DNA of 64,000 nt from Sphingobium baderi (GTDB taxonomy: Bacteria; Pseudomonadota; Alphaproteobacteria; Sphingomonadales; Sphingomonadaceae): positions 1,630,501-1,694,500 of the forward strand of contig NZ_CP013264.1 in the NCBI RefSeq assembly GCF_001456115.1, in the 5' to 3' direction. This document shows positions 53,392-58,641 of this stretch, piece by piece; positions within the stretch are counted from its first letter, which is position 1; every line of letters begins with the position of its first letter. The position numbers and the translations under genes were made by a program. The notes below the pieces were generated by a model. It was not told the DNA's origin. It did no database searches and saw only the letters and a list, made by a program, of their open reading frames with translations.

Positions 53392-54654
53392 CTATCCCTT
53401 CGCCATCTCATTCATGATTTCGCCGGCAGGCATCTTCGGCAGCAGCACGACTATGGTCGTCCCCTTGCCCACGATGCTGCTGATGTCCATCCGCCCCCGA
53501 TGGCGCTCCACGATATGCTTGACGATGGCCAGACCCAGCCCGGTGCCGCCCATGGCCCGGCTCCGGCCCGAATCCACGCGATAGAAACGCTCCGTCAGGC
53601 GCGGCAGGTGATCGGGCGCGATCCCTTCGCCCTCGTCCGCCACGGTCAGCCGCGTCATGCCGCTCGGGCCTTCCGTCAGGGTCACGCGGATCGGCGTGCC
53701 GGGGCGGCCATATTTGGCGGAATTGCCGATCAGATTATGCAGCAACTGGGAAAGCTGCGCGCGATCGCCCCGGACGGGCGGCAGACCGGCGTCGATACTG
53801 ATTTCCACCTCCGCCCCACGCTCGCCATGGCTGGTGCGGAACACGCCCGCGACTTCCGCCACCAGGCCGGAAAGATCGACCGCGCTGTCGGGCGCGCGGT
53901 ATTTGTCGGCTTCGATCCGCGACAGGGAGATAAGGTCGTCGATCAGACGCTGCATCCGCCGCGCTTCACCGTCCATGATCTTCAGGAAGCGTTGCCGCGT
54001 TTCGGTGTCCTTGCCCAGTTCCGGGTCGGCCAGCGTTTCGATGAAGCCCAATATCCCAGCCAGCGGAGTCCGCAGTTCATGGCTGGCATTGGCCACAAAA
54101 TCGACCCGCATCCGCTCCGCCGCATAAGCGCCGCTATGATCGACCAGATGGACTAGCCGCCACATTTCTTCCGCCGCGCCAAAGGGAGCGATCCGCATTT
54201 GCCAGCGCTGGTCCCGCGCGCCTAGCCCCACCAGTTCAACCATATCCGCTTCGGTCATCGCCGCCATGTTCGTCAACCTTTCGGCGGCTGCCGGATGGCG
54301 GATGGCGATGCGGGCATCCTCACCCTCGATATATGCGCCCAGCAACAGTCGCGCCGCGCGATTGGCGCGCAGAATGCGTCCTTTCTCGATCAGCAGAAGC
54401 GGGTCGGCTATGCCCTCCAAAAGATCGGCAAAGCCGGGCTGGTCGATCAGCCTGGGGGATAGTGGCGCATCCTCCACGCGTTCCTGGACAATGCCACGCT
54501 GGCCTCCTTGCGTCGAGATCAGAAGGACGAGCACACCCGCCAGCACCGGCAGCACGATGGCCAGCGGCGACGCGCCGAGCAAAAGTGCGCCTCCTGTGCC
54601 CAGCAACAGCATGGCGATGGAAGCCGTGATCTGCGATACGCTCAGTCGATTCAT
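53392..54654 (-). CDS. phoR: Phosphate regulon sensor kinase PhoR
   Basis: A 420-residue histidine kinase. Two N-terminal membrane helices (about residues 10-27 and 30-47), a PAS-like region (GIADPLLLIEKGRILRANRAA), H-box with His192 in FVANASHELRTPLAG, and ATP-binding boxes (LLHNLIGNSAKYG, VADEGEGIA, GGTGLGLAIVKHIVERH) are all present. It is upstream of pstS but without the Pho box; whether it shares a transcript with pst or has its own promoter near 54700 is unclear. Its partner PhoB is at the far end of the set. Confidence 0.96.
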   Translation of the reverse strand: MNRLSVSQITASIAMLLLGTGGALLLGASPLAIVLPVLAGVLVLLISTQGGQRGIVQERVEDAPLSPRLIDQPGFADLLEGIADPLLLIEKGRILRANRAARLLLGAYIEGEDARIAIRHPAAAERLTNMAAMTEADMVELVGLGARDQRWQMRIAPFGAAEEMWRLVHLVDHSGAYAAERMRVDFVANASHELRTPLAGILGFIETLADPELGKDTETRQRFLKIMDGEARRMQRLIDDLISLSRIEADKYRAPDSAVDLSGLVAEVAGVFRTSHGERGAEVEISIDAGLPPVRGDRAQLSQLLHNLIGNSAKYGRPGTPIRVTLTEGPSGMTRLTVADEGEGIAPDHLPRLTERFYRVDSGRSRAMGGTGLGLAIVKHIVERHRGRMDISSIVGKGTTIVVLLPKMPAGEIMNEMAKG

Positions 54655-54706: not shown

Positions 54707-54721
54707 GCGTAAAATTTACGC
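54707..54721. promoter_or_regulatory. Palindrome between phoR and the Tat-protein gene
   Basis: GCGTAAAATTTACGC is a perfect palindrome about a central A. It lies between the divergent starts of phoR (54654) and the Tat protein (54753), in the place of a shared operator. No regulator is known. Confidence 0.45.
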
Positions 54722-54752
54722 TTTGGCAAGCGCGATAGCGGATCATGACGAA

Positions 54753-55193
54753 ATGAGCGAGCCCATGACCGGACAGGATGATCCTCAGCAACCCTCCGCG
54801 CAGGAAGGGCAAGAGACGGCGCACGAGCCGGTGTCGTCGCGTCGGCAATTGCTGATGGGTGGCGCGATCGCCGCGTCAGCCATCGTATCGATACGTCCCG
54901 CGCTCGCCAATACCGCTGCGTCCGTCCTCAACTGTACCATCCCCGTGCCCGATCAGGCGCGGGCGGGCAACTATATCGCGCCCAACGGACAGGTCGTGCC
55001 CGCCGGAACGCCCGGCGCCTTTCCCGCGGCGGGACGGAGCTATACCGGCGAACAGGTGAAGCAGGCTTTGCGGGGAAGGCCGCTGCCGGGGACCGGCTAT
55101 GAGCAGAATCAGGCCTATCTGAACTATATTCGTCGCCTTCAATCGGGCACCAGCGGCTTTACCTGCTACGCCTCACTTCAGATGCCGCGTTGA
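54753..55193 (+). CDS. Tat-exported small protein beside the HPr-rel-A genes
   Basis: A 146-residue protein. After an acidic, Gln/Pro-rich N-terminus of about 28 residues comes a twin-arginine signal, SSRRQLLMGGAIAASAIVSI, with Arg30-Arg31 and cleavage near ALAN (residues 50-53). The mature part of about 94 residues has two cysteines (Cys61 and Cys138), a Gly/Pro-rich segment (APNGQVVPAGTPGAFPAAG) and a Tyr- and Arg-containing C-terminal region ending in MPR. No family was recognised. It is 71 bases before the glycosyltransferase and in the same direction as the PqqD, kinase and nucleotidyltransferase genes, so it is a candidate substrate of that set. Start 54690 would place the operator-like palindrome inside the gene. 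Confidence 0.6.
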   Translation: MSEPMTGQDDPQQPSAQEGQETAHEPVSSRRQLLMGGAIAASAIVSIRPALANTAASVLNCTIPVPDQARAGNYIAPNGQVVPAGTPGAFPAAGRSYTGEQVKQALRGRPLPGTGYEQNQAYLNYIRRLQSGTSGFTCYASLQMPR

Positions 55194-55264
55194 TTTTCCA
55201 GGGAGCGCATATGGCTTTTTAGCGTTGATGCCGTTGCATTACGGCGCAGTGTTTAGAGGCCTCC

Positions 55265-56431
55265 ATGTTTCATACCCGTCCGCCGGTGGCGGAATCTTTT
55301 TCCATTGCGATCTATCTTTATGAGCCGAGCGACGGCGGGCTGGATCGGATTGCCATTCTGTTTGCCAGCCATCTTGCGCGGCGCGGCGTGCGGGCTGAAT
55401 TGTGGATGGCGCGAAGGGAAGGACCAGTGGCAGGGCTGATCGATCCGGCGGTCACGGTGCGTCGCGTGCCGTCGCCGCCTTTGCCCCGACGTCTGGCGAT
55501 GATCGCGCAATTTCCCGCCTTGGCGGCCATGATAAGACGGCATCGTCCCGCAATCCTCTGTTCTGCCGGAAATCAAAGCAATATGCTGGTTGCTCTGGCA
55601 GCGTTGGGTACTGGCACGCGCGCGGTCGGGCGTATTTCCAATCCTCTGATTTATGCTCATCAAAGGCGTCTGGCCGCTTATTTCCGACTCCGCCGTTTTC
55701 GCGCCATAGCTCGCGCCTGTGCGATGACCATAGTGATGGGAGAGCAGGATCGCCGCATGCTGATGGCGCCGGGACCGTTGGCGGCACATGACGTCCGCCT
55801 GTTGCCGCGTCCTAGCGTAACGCCAGCGATGGAGGCCGCGTTCGCGGCACGGCAACGCCGCCATCTGGACGATCCCTTCCGCTTGCTCATGGCCGGTCGT
55901 CTTACCGTGCAGAAGGATCACGCGCTGGCGCTGCGAGCGCTGGCTCGCTTGCCGCATATCGACTGGCGCTTGAAAATTGCGGGCGATGGCCCGTTGCGCG
56001 AAGAACTTGGCCAGCTATGCGAGGAACTGGGTATCAGCGACAGGGTCGATTTCCTTGGTTTCGTCATTGATCCCCAGCAACTCGCAGCCATGATGGGGCA
56101 GGTCGACCTGCTGCTTCAGCCTTCCCGATGGGAAGGATTGGCCGGCACCGTCATCGAAGCACTGGGTTGCGGCGCGGGCGTGGTGGCGACCGATAGCACG
56201 GCTAATATCCGGCCTGTGTTGCAGGCGGCAGGACAGCATGATCCGGTTCCGGTCGGGGATGAGGCAGCCTTCGCACGCGCCATTGAATGGGCGTTGGCCC
56301 ATCCCGCCTCTCCGGAACAACTGGCCGCTGCGACCAGTCCGTATCGGCTGTCTCATGCGCTGGATGAATATTTTCGTGCCTGTCAAAGCCTGAGTGTGCA
56401 GCATTATTCCAGGGCGACATCGCCAGTGTGA
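55265..56431 (+). CDS. GT4-type glycosyltransferase
   Basis: A 388-residue glycosyltransferase of the GT-B fold. The C-terminal domain shows RLLMAGRLTVQKDHALALRA, GDGPLREELGQLCEELGI, and the donor-sugar signature LLLQPSRWEGLAGTVIEALG, with Glu and a second Glu as in GT4 (EX7E). The N-terminal domain starts EPSDGGLDRIAILFASHLAR. It likely adds a sugar to an unknown acceptor. It stands in a cluster that also has the PqqD, HprK-like kinase and nucleotidyltransferase genes. Codon use looks less GC-biased than in the flanking pho genes. Confidence 0.85.
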   Translation: MFHTRPPVAESFSIAIYLYEPSDGGLDRIAILFASHLARRGVRAELWMARREGPVAGLIDPAVTVRRVPSPPLPRRLAMIAQFPALAAMIRRHRPAILCSAGNQSNMLVALAALGTGTRAVGRISNPLIYAHQRRLAAYFRLRRFRAIARACAMTIVMGEQDRRMLMAPGPLAAHDVRLLPRPSVTPAMEAAFAARQRRHLDDPFRLLMAGRLTVQKDHALALRALARLPHIDWRLKIAGDGPLREELGQLCEELGISDRVDFLGFVIDPQQLAAMMGQVDLLLQPSRWEGLAGTVIEALGCGAGVVATDSTANIRPVLQAAGQHDPVPVGDEAAFARAIEWALAHPASPEQLAAATSPYRLSHALDEYFRACQSLSVQHYSRATSPV

Positions 56432-56501
56432 TCGGGATGCGTTAGTCACCTGCTTACCCCTTTGCGTTATGGCGGAGGCGGCAATTAAACGGGGTAGGGC
56501 T

Positions 56502-56792
56502 GTGACAGTCGATCAATGCTATCATGAGGAGGCGCAGGGAAGCATTATTTCCCGAATCCTTGATGACATGGTGCTGCTCTATCACCGCCCCTCCGGCCAG
56601 ACGCATATGGTTATCAGTCCCGTGCCGGAAATCCTGGCCGCGCTGAAGGATAGCGCCCCGGCGTCGGCGCAAATCCTGTATGAACGGTTATCGCGCCTCT
56701 ACGACCTGGGACCGGCTGGCACCGCGCTGGCGGAGATAGAGGGACATCTGGTGAACATGACGGCGCTGGGGTTAATCCGCACAGCCGCATGA
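56502..56792 (+). CDS. PqqD-family peptide chaperone of the HPr-rel-A system
   Basis: A 96-residue PqqD-like protein, the RiPP recognition element (RRE) fold, which binds the leader of a precursor peptide. SRILDDMVLLYHRPSGQTHM and HLVNMTALGLI give the family's beta-hairpin plus helices. The stop overlaps the kinase start by four bases (ATGA). The GTG at 56502 follows a G-rich segment; the ATG at 56469 would add 11 residues. It resembles the PqqD-type proteins called 'HPr-rel-A system' in family databases. The precursor it would recognise is not known. Confidence 0.72.
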   Translation: MTVDQCYHEEAQGSIISRILDDMVLLYHRPSGQTHMVISPVPEILAALKDSAPASAQILYERLSRLYDLGPAGTALAEIEGHLVNMTALGLIRTAA

Positions 56793-57652
56793 AGCATCGT
56801 ATCACCCTTTCCATTGGCCCGGCGACCTTTCGCATCGGGTCGGCATGGCCAGACCCGATCCGGGAATTGAAGCGCCTCTATGCCGACTATCCCGCGCCTG
56901 CGGGCGATTTCGCCGATTTCACCGTCCGGCTCGAGCCGGCCGGGGCGTTGCGCCGCTGGCTGCGCCCATCCATCTTCATTACCGGTGATCACGGCCTGGC
57001 CGATGCCGCGCCCATGAGCCTGCCGCATGGCCTGCTCGCCGCAGAGATGGGGATGAACCTGCAAATGGCGCTAGGCTGGCGGCGGCACTTGCTCCTCCAT
57101 GCCTCCAGCGTGGAAAAGAACGGGCGCGTGTTGGTCATGACCGGCGAGTCCGGGTCAGGCAAATCCACGTTGGCGGCGCAACTGGGCGAGCGTGGCTGGC
57201 GGTTAATGGGGGATGAATTTGCGTTGCTCGATCTGGCGACGGGAGTCGTGCTGCCCTTTCCTCGCCTCGTCTCGCTCAAGAACCGGGCGATCGGCGTGAT
57301 GGCGGCTGAAGTGCCTGCGGAGCGGATGGGGCCGCTGATGGCCGGCACGGCCAAGGGCGACATTCGCCATATGGTGCCCCGTGCCGAGGCCGTGGCGCGC
57401 ATGGATGAAGGCGCTTCCCCTGCACTGCTGTTGTTTCCCCGATTCGGCCATGCGCCGGATATCCGTTCCGTTGGACATGGAGAGACGTTCATGCGGTTGA
57501 CACAGGCGTCGACCAATTATGTGGCGCTGGGCGAGCCGGGTTTTGCGGCGCTGACCCGCTTTGTGAAAACCGTGCCGGCCAAGGCTATCGATTTCCCATC
57601 GGGCAACGAGGCCATCGCCATGGTCGAACGACTGTGGGAACAACGCGCGTGA
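56789..57652 (+). CDS. HprK-related kinase A
   Basis: A 287-residue kinase of the HprK family, not a normal HPr kinase. The P-loop GESGSGKST is at residues 119-127, followed by MGDEFALLDL (140-149), which resembles the HprK active-site segment. The N-terminal 100 residues differ from the HPr-binding part of HprK. HprK-like kinases of lasso peptide clusters phosphorylate a peptide serine; this one may do likewise. It overlaps the PqqD gene at ATGA and the nucleotidyltransferase gene at GTGA, so the three are translationally coupled. Confidence 0.8.
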   Translation: MKHRITLSIGPATFRIGSAWPDPIRELKRLYADYPAPAGDFADFTVRLEPAGALRRWLRPSIFITGDHGLADAAPMSLPHGLLAAEMGMNLQMALGWRRHLLLHASSVEKNGRVLVMTGESGSGKSTLAAQLGERGWRLMGDEFALLDLATGVVLPFPRLVSLKNRAIGVMAAEVPAERMGPLMAGTAKGDIRHMVPRAEAVARMDEGASPALLLFPRFGHAPDIRSVGHGETFMRLTQASTNYVALGEPGFAALTRFVKTVPAKAIDFPSGNEAIAMVERLWEQRA

Positions 57653-58641
57653 ATGCGTTGCCGCTTGTCTGCGCTTTGCGGGAGCCCGGCACCGTCGCGG
57701 CGTTCGGGGCGGAGCAATGGAATATGCTGATCGCCATGGCGCGGGCGGAGCGGTTGATTGGTACACTCGCCGTGCGGATCGGCGACATGCCAGTGCCGGA
57801 AGCAGTGCGCTTCGTGCTGGCCGACGCACGGTTGGATGCCGAGTGGGAGGCACGGCAGGCGCTATGGGAGGCGGATCGTGCGGCGGTCGCGCTGAAGCCG
57901 CTGGGGTTGCGGGTCGTGTTGCTCAAGGGCACCGCTTATGCGGCTGCGAGGTTGAAGGCTGGGGAGGGGCGGTTCATTGGCGATCTCGATATCCTCGTGC
58001 CGCGCAATGCGATGGCGGAGGTGGAGAAATATTTGATGGCGGCGGGATGGGAGTGGGTGAAGCCCGATCCATATGACGACGCCTATTACCGTCAGTGGAT
58101 GCATGAACTGCCGCCGATGATCCATCAGGAGCGGGACCGGATGATCGACGTGCATCACACCATCCTGCCGCTGACGGCAAGGCAAACGCCGGATGCGGGG
58201 GCGATGATCGCGGACGCCATTTCCGTAACCGGCGGATTATATGTCCTGTCGCCGGAAGACCGGATCTGCCACGCGGTCGCGCATCTGCTGGCGGATGGCG
58301 ATCTGGCGGGCGGTCTGCGGAACTTGTGGGACATATATTGCCTGCTGGGGGAGGTGGACGCCGGAGCGCTGGAAACGCGCGCCGGGCGGCATGGCCTGTC
58401 GCGCCATGTGCGGCAGGCGCGGCGGCTGGCCGATGCGCTTTATGGAGAAGGGCGGAGGCGGCTCACGCCGTGGGATCGGATCGTCATCGCCCGTCTGCTG
58501 GCCCGCGACGGCTGGGGCAGGGAAACGCGCAAAGGGCTGCGCTTTGCCTTCTATCTCCGCTCGCACTGGCTGCGGATGCCCCCGATGATGCTGGCGCGGC
58601 ATTTGTTCACCAAATGGCGCAAGGGGCATCGGCCGGTTTAG
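57649..58641 (+). CDS. Minimal nucleotidyltransferase (NTP_transf_5 type)
   Basis: A 330-residue protein of the 'uncharacterised nucleotidyltransferase' family. The conserved pattern is LLKGTAYAA (Lys93-Gly94), the metal-binding GDLDILV with Asp112 and Asp114, and MIDVHHTIL with Asp167 and His169. C-terminal about 150 residues are helical. In lasso peptide clusters such proteins co-occur with HprK-like kinases. The GTG at 57649 overlaps the kinase stop. It likely transfers a nucleotide to a phosphorylated or other acceptor, by inference. Confidence 0.75.
   Translation: MNALPLVCALREPGTVAAFGAEQWNMLIAMARAERLIGTLAVRIGDMPVPEAVRFVLADARLDAEWEARQALWEADRAAVALKPLGLRVVLLKGTAYAAARLKAGEGRFIGDLDILVPRNAMAEVEKYLMAAGWEWVKPDPYDDAYYRQWMHELPPMIHQERDRMIDVHHTILPLTARQTPDAGAMIADAISVTGGLYVLSPEDRICHAVAHLLADGDLAGGLRNLWDIYCLLGEVDAGALETRAGRHGLSRHVRQARRLADALYGEGRRRLTPWDRIVIARLLARDGWGRETRKGLRFAFYLRSHWLRMPPMMLARHLFTKWRKGHRPV

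Follow-up and report, generated by a model that had tools for sequence, protein, structure and literature searches.

A twin-arginine-exported protein as the probable substrate of an HPr-rel-A kinase, adaptor and nucleotidyltransferase set in Sphingobium baderi

The stretch analysed here (hereafter the window, 64,000 nucleotides of Sphingobium baderi, contig NZ_CP013264.1) carries at 54753-58641 five open reading frames (ORFs) on the plus strand, encoding a protein with a twin-arginine translocation (Tat) signal, a glycosyltransferase, a PqqD-like protein, an HprK-like kinase and a nucleotidyltransferase. A first-pass annotation made from the letters alone had listed these five genes, their strand and their start/stop overlaps, and our ORF reading agrees with it: ATGA at 56789-56792 is common to the stop of the PqqD gene and the start of the kinase gene, and GTGA at 57649-57652 to the kinase stop and the nucleotidyltransferase start (both read from the sequence). 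We consider the locus a probable system of recognition element, HprK-like kinase and NTP-transferase with a Tat-exported protein as substrate, the recognition element (RRE) being of the kind that serves ribosomally synthesized and post-translationally modified peptides (RiPPs). The features are as follows.

54753..55193, plus strand: Tat-signal protein, 146 aa, proposed substrate; found together with the kinase in all 61 kinase-positive genomes upon inspection
54753..54908, plus strand: N-terminal extension and Tat signal, which may double as leader; predicted cleavage site and putative leader role
54840-54845, plus strand: RR of the Tat signal, residues 30-31
54921..54923, plus strand: Ser57 codon, second candidate phosphate acceptor; unchanged in all 80 sphingomonad sequences, that of the window among them
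55161..55178, plus strand: C-terminal motif T-C-Y-A-S-L, residues 137-142; T137, C138 and S141 present in all 80 sphingomonad sequences
55173-55175, plus strand: Ser141 codon, leading candidate acceptor
55265..56431, plus strand: GT4-family glycosyltransferase, optional insertion (PF00534, 94.9 bits)
56469..56792, plus strand: PqqD_rel_X protein (RRE), 107 aa, TIGR04353; alternative start GTG at 56502
56789..57652, plus strand: HprK_rel_A kinase, 287 aa, TIGR04352; H104, P-loop K125, D142, E143
57649..58641, plus strand: PF14907 nucleotidyltransferase, GTG start, 330 aa; K92, D111, D113 (numbering from the second residue)
53392..54654, minus strand: PhoR-like histidine kinase, conserved divergent neighbor outside the proposed system; divergent beside the Tat gene in 78 of 80 loci

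Both the kinase (HprK_rel_A, TIGR04352, 229.1 bits, cut-off 200) and the PqqD protein (PqqD_rel_X, TIGR04353, 58.9 bits, cut-off 35; its sole NCBIfam match) exceed the NCBIfam cut-offs, which supports the HPr-rel-A identity given by the first-pass annotation. The nucleotidyltransferase matches PF14907 (173.9 bits, cut-off 31.2) and no NCBIfam model; for the Tat protein, neither Pfam nor NCBIfam gave a match at E <= 1. Sequence searches of solved structures returned no close relative of the kinase (best HPr-kinase match E 0.015) or of the nucleotidyltransferase. Kinase residues H104, K125, D142 and E143 have a frequency of 1.00 in an alignment of 178 rows (some duplicate loci included), as do K92, D111 and D113 of the nucleotidyltransferase in one of 127 rows. 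The AlphaFold2 model of the PqqD protein (mean pLDDT 88.5) has lasso-peptide RREs as its best PDB matches, i.e., a predicted PqqD/RRE fold that supports a RiPP-type recognition domain and, at that level, the leader-binding fold envisaged earlier. With its twin arginine, hydrophobic stretch and AxA site, and a TatC gene in the same genome (221.5 bits), the Tat protein is predicted to be an exported Tat substrate.

Conservation of this arrangement was followed in the best 80 of 224 relatives from a kinase scan of genome contigs, our sphingomonad locus set. The order Tat protein, kinase, nucleotidyltransferase is kept in 79 of the 80 (the sole exception, L009, starts ~430 bp before its kinase gene), together with the divergent phoR in 78, and a tblastn search recovered PqqD from every locus except L052; across relatives, identities are generally higher for the Tat protein than for PqqD. 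A glycosyltransferase lies between the Tat and PqqD genes in 23/80 loci only and is therefore an optional insertion, which we reject as a core member. The first-pass annotation had staked its proposal on all five genes being co-conserved; this holds for four of them and fails for the glycosyltransferase, which it had placed in the core set. Judged by gene content and order, the Tat protein, PqqD, kinase and nucleotidyltransferase genes are a real four-gene unit.

A wider comparison of 199 genomes of the same family found the kinase above cut-off in 61 and a match to the Tat alignment in 62 (both in 60, kinase only in 1, Tat match only in 2, neither in 136). On inspection, the kinase-only genome proved to hold a divergent Tat protein, and the two Tat-only matches fell in long ORFs that by eye belong to other proteins, i.e., the Tat protein accompanies the kinase in 61/61 genomes and the other 138 yielded no true copy, an absence that is not absolute because the search missed one divergent copy. 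Six genera (g174, g188, g193, g200, g203 and g218, by eye) contain members having both genes and members having neither. Two genomes have the Tat gene 164 and 280 kb away from the kinase and a third has it on another contig, beside phoR each time, and as the pairing is kept despite this unlinking, it argues for function over mere adjacency. The Tat protein is a constant partner of the kinase, recognized as such here. In one genome (G305:C1:1125679-1126504, within L164) the kinase match falls into two overlapping pieces, which suggests either a frameshift or a misassembly.

The kinase is also found beyond sphingomonads, exceeding the cut-off in 51/299 genomes sampled across the phylum, in 36/48 genomes of the class of G006, which is Magnetococcales-type (relatives of the substrate at L119 bear that name), and in 41/369 of the class of G294, which we take, by inference, to be gammaproteobacteria. 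Non-sphingomonad loci were taken from 65 of 80 kinase-positive genomes, the fifteen left out being lower-scoring, and the census leaves aside 15 duplicate loci from genomes already represented as well as L129, which comes from a sphingomonad-family genome (G268). A stricter Tat test detected an upstream Tat protein in 91/98 sphingomonad and 44/81 other locus rows (duplicates included), and because its misses, on reading, showed plain Tat signals, we adopted a fixed relaxed test with its own background. This found a Tat-like protein upstream in 53/65 loci against 25/203 background windows (background ORFs, unlike test ORFs, were limited to 330 aa, a small asymmetry), and inspection added six more (L131, L086, L184, L108, L116 and L197), bringing the count to 59/65. 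PqqD and the nucleotidyltransferase are less regular, being found in 67/81 and 57/81 non-sphingomonad locus rows, respectively (duplicates and short flanks included). One Magnetococcales-type locus has a TPR-sulfotransferase gene (PF13469; L119:7789-9504, minus strand) between kinase and nucleotidyltransferase.

In the window Tat protein, the twin arginine is followed by a hydrophobic stretch and then by ALA, with the likely cleavage behind it at residue 52. R31 and P49 are invariant in 36 aligned proteins, and Ser57, Cys61, Thr137, Cys138 and Ser141 in the 80 sphingomonad sequences. A C-terminal [S/T]-C-x-x-S-[LIF] is typical of sphingomonad and Magnetococcales-type proteins, whereas most gammaproteobacterial ones are without it: in its strict form it occurs in 26/59 non-sphingomonad Tat proteins (25/25 Magnetococcales-type and 1/34 gammaproteobacterial-type, L199) versus 1/1666 background ORFs. 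A relaxed form adds five more gammaproteobacterial-type proteins and is weak alone, as 147/1666 background ORFs have it too. Fifteen gammaproteobacterial-type proteins carry an SGNLS-type motif (L187 being also counted among the relaxed-motif group); by eye, many gammaproteobacterial-type substrates encoded upstream of PqqD in L175-L201 have in common a different mature domain with SGNLS, GYWK-type and LNA motifs, and four such proteins that were scanned (L113, L115, L122 and L127) gave no Pfam match above cut-off.

The shortest precursors have an estimated ~12 (L197) and ~20 (L108) residues behind the predicted cleavage site, both with S-C-x-x-S. That of L108 measures 82 aa; that of L197 (787-1011, plus strand) is a 74-aa Tat-signal precursor encoded directly upstream of PqqD and HprK_rel_A, and a protein search with it returned one identical match and four relatives, in which the leader is kept and the tail varies around SCW[GAT][ST][LI]. 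Such a conserved front with a short variable core and one constant hydroxyl residue resembles the build of a RiPP precursor. For the window Tat protein, the predicted structure (mean pLDDT 65.8) reaches block pLDDT 71-91 over residues 61-130 and matches nothing in the PDB convincingly (best E 3.1); the C-terminal tail is modelled at low confidence, consistent with a flexible end.

Several described systems resemble this one (PMC13381572, PMC9266682 and PMC12710340). Closest in logic are the linear polyphosphorylated peptides (LPPs) of Bacillota described in 2026, in which a discrete RRE, an HprK-like kinase and an NTP-transferase operate without lasso cyclase, LppK phosphorylates Ser3 of the core, and the gene clusters are often located close to loci for capsular polysaccharide (PMC13381572). 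The same paper calls LPPs restricted to Bacillota and gives them an SpI-like peptidase, an MsbA-like transporter, a YxxP leader and the Ser3 acceptor, whereas the system in the window has a Tat signal and mostly protein-sized substrates. Neither such a peptidase nor such a transporter was found among the flanking genes scanned, the rest of the genome not having been searched for them. The window Tat protein lacks the YxxP motif, since residues 1-52 contain neither Tyr nor Trp; [YW]xxP occurs in the first 75 aa, mature sequence partly included, of 22/80 sphingomonad and 2/59 other proteins. In lasso peptides of the paeninodin/pseudomycoidin type, which likewise combine an HprK-like kinase, a nucleotidyltransferase-like enzyme and an RRE fold, PadeK, ThcoK and SyanK phosphorylate the C-terminal Ser, the nucleotidyltransferase-like PsmN adds hexoses onto its phosphate, and the kinases share an HKDD motif (PMC9266682). 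The window kinase has D-E instead of D-D, its candidate acceptor is not the last residue, and neither the five genes nor the scanned flanking genes include a macrolactam cyclase or B2 protease, in keeping with the earlier remark that lasso cyclase and leader protease are missing. RREs associated with DUF2063 are paired with DUF2282 precursors, which bear export signals instead of a classical leader motif; those signals are Sec-dependent, the relevant passage mentions no kinase (PMC12710340), and the window PqqD protein matches TIGR04353 only. The database HPr-rel-A set itself (TIGR04352/TIGR04353) has the same adjacent kinase and PqqD genes, to which we add the Tat partner that, like the nucleotidyltransferase, matches no NCBIfam model; in a search of open-access literature, no publication was found that connects HPr-rel-A with a Tat protein. 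Hence the first-pass annotation's candidate for an undescribed system is new in its Tat partner, whereas the RRE, kinase and NTP-transferase logic already has its Bacillota description (PMC13381572).

We consider it reasonably likely, from gene co-occurrence, that the Tat-signal protein is the substrate that the other three members of the four-gene modification system act upon before it is exported by Tat. The PqqD-like RRE would bind the N-terminal extension or signal region of the precursor and bring it to the HprK_rel_A kinase, which by analogy would phosphorylate, perhaps polyphosphorylate, a serine, most likely Ser141 and less so Ser57; the PF14907 enzyme would then extend the phosphate with a sugar or nucleotidyl moiety. 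Since proteins fold in the cytoplasm before Tat exports them, the modified protein could leave by this route, to be cut by signal peptidase, without a peptidase or transporter of its own. The proposal draws its sequence-based support from the families, the co-occurrence, the conserved motif and the predicted RRE fold, while its substrate, binding site, acceptor residue, step order, last-step donor and surface role beside exosortase/polysaccharide systems are what we infer. The first-pass annotation had likewise foreseen a phosphate, nucleotide or sugar placed on a substrate; co-occurrence now makes the Tat protein its likely identity, and the glycosyltransferase drops out of the core. More tentatively, and with rather less confidence than in the substrate assignment itself, we postulate that in Proteobacteria the Tat signal region may serve as a RiPP leader, with the RRE delivering whole exported proteins of dissimilar mature parts to the HprK-like kinase and PF14907 enzyme for phosphate-linked (glycosyl or nucleotidyl) tagging before Tat export, possibly tying surface proteins to exosortase- or exopolysaccharide-type polymers. 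A leader-profile test in the protein's own genome was negative and does not support the signal region as leader, 14 gammaproteobacterial-type Tat proteins fit neither the C-terminal nor the SGNLS-type motif, and no upstream Tat protein was found in 6/65 loci (L098, L100, L107, L123, L172 and L202).

Among other explanations, the kinase could be an ordinary HPr kinase of a sugar phosphotransferase system (PTS) or of carbon regulation, the outcome that the first-pass annotation had named as fatal to its proposal. The window kinase does share its P-loop and His/Lys/Asp residues with HPr kinases and has a weak PF07475 match (20.9 bits, cut-off 33.3), but it passes HprK_rel_A and not TIGR00679 (21.3 bits, cut-off 240), and the genome has a separate HprK (PF07475, 72.4 bits) adjoining EIIA and HPr. 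Because this HprK sits in a ChvG-HprK-RapZ-EIIA-HPr cluster ~0.5 Mb away (G000:C1 ~1.168 Mb; L149:7944-12372), we conclude that the window kinase is not the PTS enzyme, an explanation already largely refuted and barely credible. It is also quite improbable that the nucleotidyltransferase alone modifies the substrate (e.g., by AMPylation) and that the kinase has a regulatory role, working on another partner in the manner of an HPr kinase/phosphatase: the invariant K92, D111 and D113 of the transferase would suit this, but the kinase gene overlaps both its neighbors, the transferase was not found in 24/81 non-sphingomonad locus rows (many short-flanked) where the kinase defines all rows, and the precursor peptide itself is the target of related kinases (PMC9266682, PMC13381572).

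The Tat protein might instead be an effector or carrier that binds, outside the cytoplasmic membrane, a small phosphorylated molecule built by the kinase and nucleotidyltransferase. A strict genomic partner may be a functional partner without being modified, the Tat gene can be unlinked from those of PqqD, kinase and nucleotidyltransferase, and residues 61-130 are modelled well enough that the protein may be a folded domain; yet an RRE-fold protein is a peptide-binding adaptor, disfavoring a mere carrier, and the short forms seem too small for a binding protein and natural as a modified core, which leaves this explanation unlikely. Somewhat less unlikely, although still doubtful, is an acceptor near the mature N terminus (Ser57, or SGNLS in gammaproteobacterial-type proteins) instead of the C-terminal serine. 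Here the invariance of Ser57, the 15/59 non-sphingomonad substrates with an SGNLS-type motif (close behind the signal in those read) and the modified Ser3 of the LPP core (PMC13381572) have to be set against a C-terminal motif shared by Magnetococcales-type and other proteins whose middle parts are dissimilar, and by the shortest precursors too, the fifth residue of S-C-x-x-[S/T] being the repeated hydroxyl.

Two of the HPr-rel-A loci examined lie in or beside XrtA/PEP-CTERM clusters, comparable to the siting of LPP clusters near capsule loci (PMC13381572): at L119 the genes stand between TIGR03087/TIGR03088 and TIGR03108 genes, i.e., within such a cluster, and at L115 beside PrsT, PrsK and a PEP-CTERM response regulator. 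An exosortase gene lies ~13 kb from the kinase in G346 and G350, and exosortase is present in 59/61 kinase-positive versus 107/138 other family genomes (P 2.8e-4, uncorrected for relatedness), the two kinase-positive genomes without it being assemblies listed as 91% and 87% complete. The window differs in that its Tat protein is without a PEP-CTERM tail and no exosortase gene lies beside it; the single exosortase match in this genome (G000:C1:3259734-3260480, L203, open frame of 568 aa) is ~1.57 Mb away. These are weak leads, and a surface-polymer role of the system is a guess. If our proposal holds, a kinase, adaptor and transferase set listed in databases without a substrate would gain a probable one in sphingomonads, Magnetococcales and gammaproteobacteria, and the phosphate-first logic seen in Bacillota LPPs and in phosphorylated lasso peptides would extend to Tat-exported proteins of Proteobacteria. 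The 74-aa and 82-aa precursors would also provide short natural substrates for asking what PF14907 enzymes transfer, a question still open in both earlier systems.

A perfect palindrome (GCGTAAAATTTACGC) stands upstream of the Tat gene at window positions 54708-54722; being present in 1/79 upstream regions, it was rejected as a conserved operator. On one side, the genes are flanked by the divergent phoR-like gene, phoU and four pst genes, and on the other by an M20 peptidase, a DAGK-domain protein and LptF/G genes. The phoR/pst surroundings might suggest phosphate regulation of the window genes.

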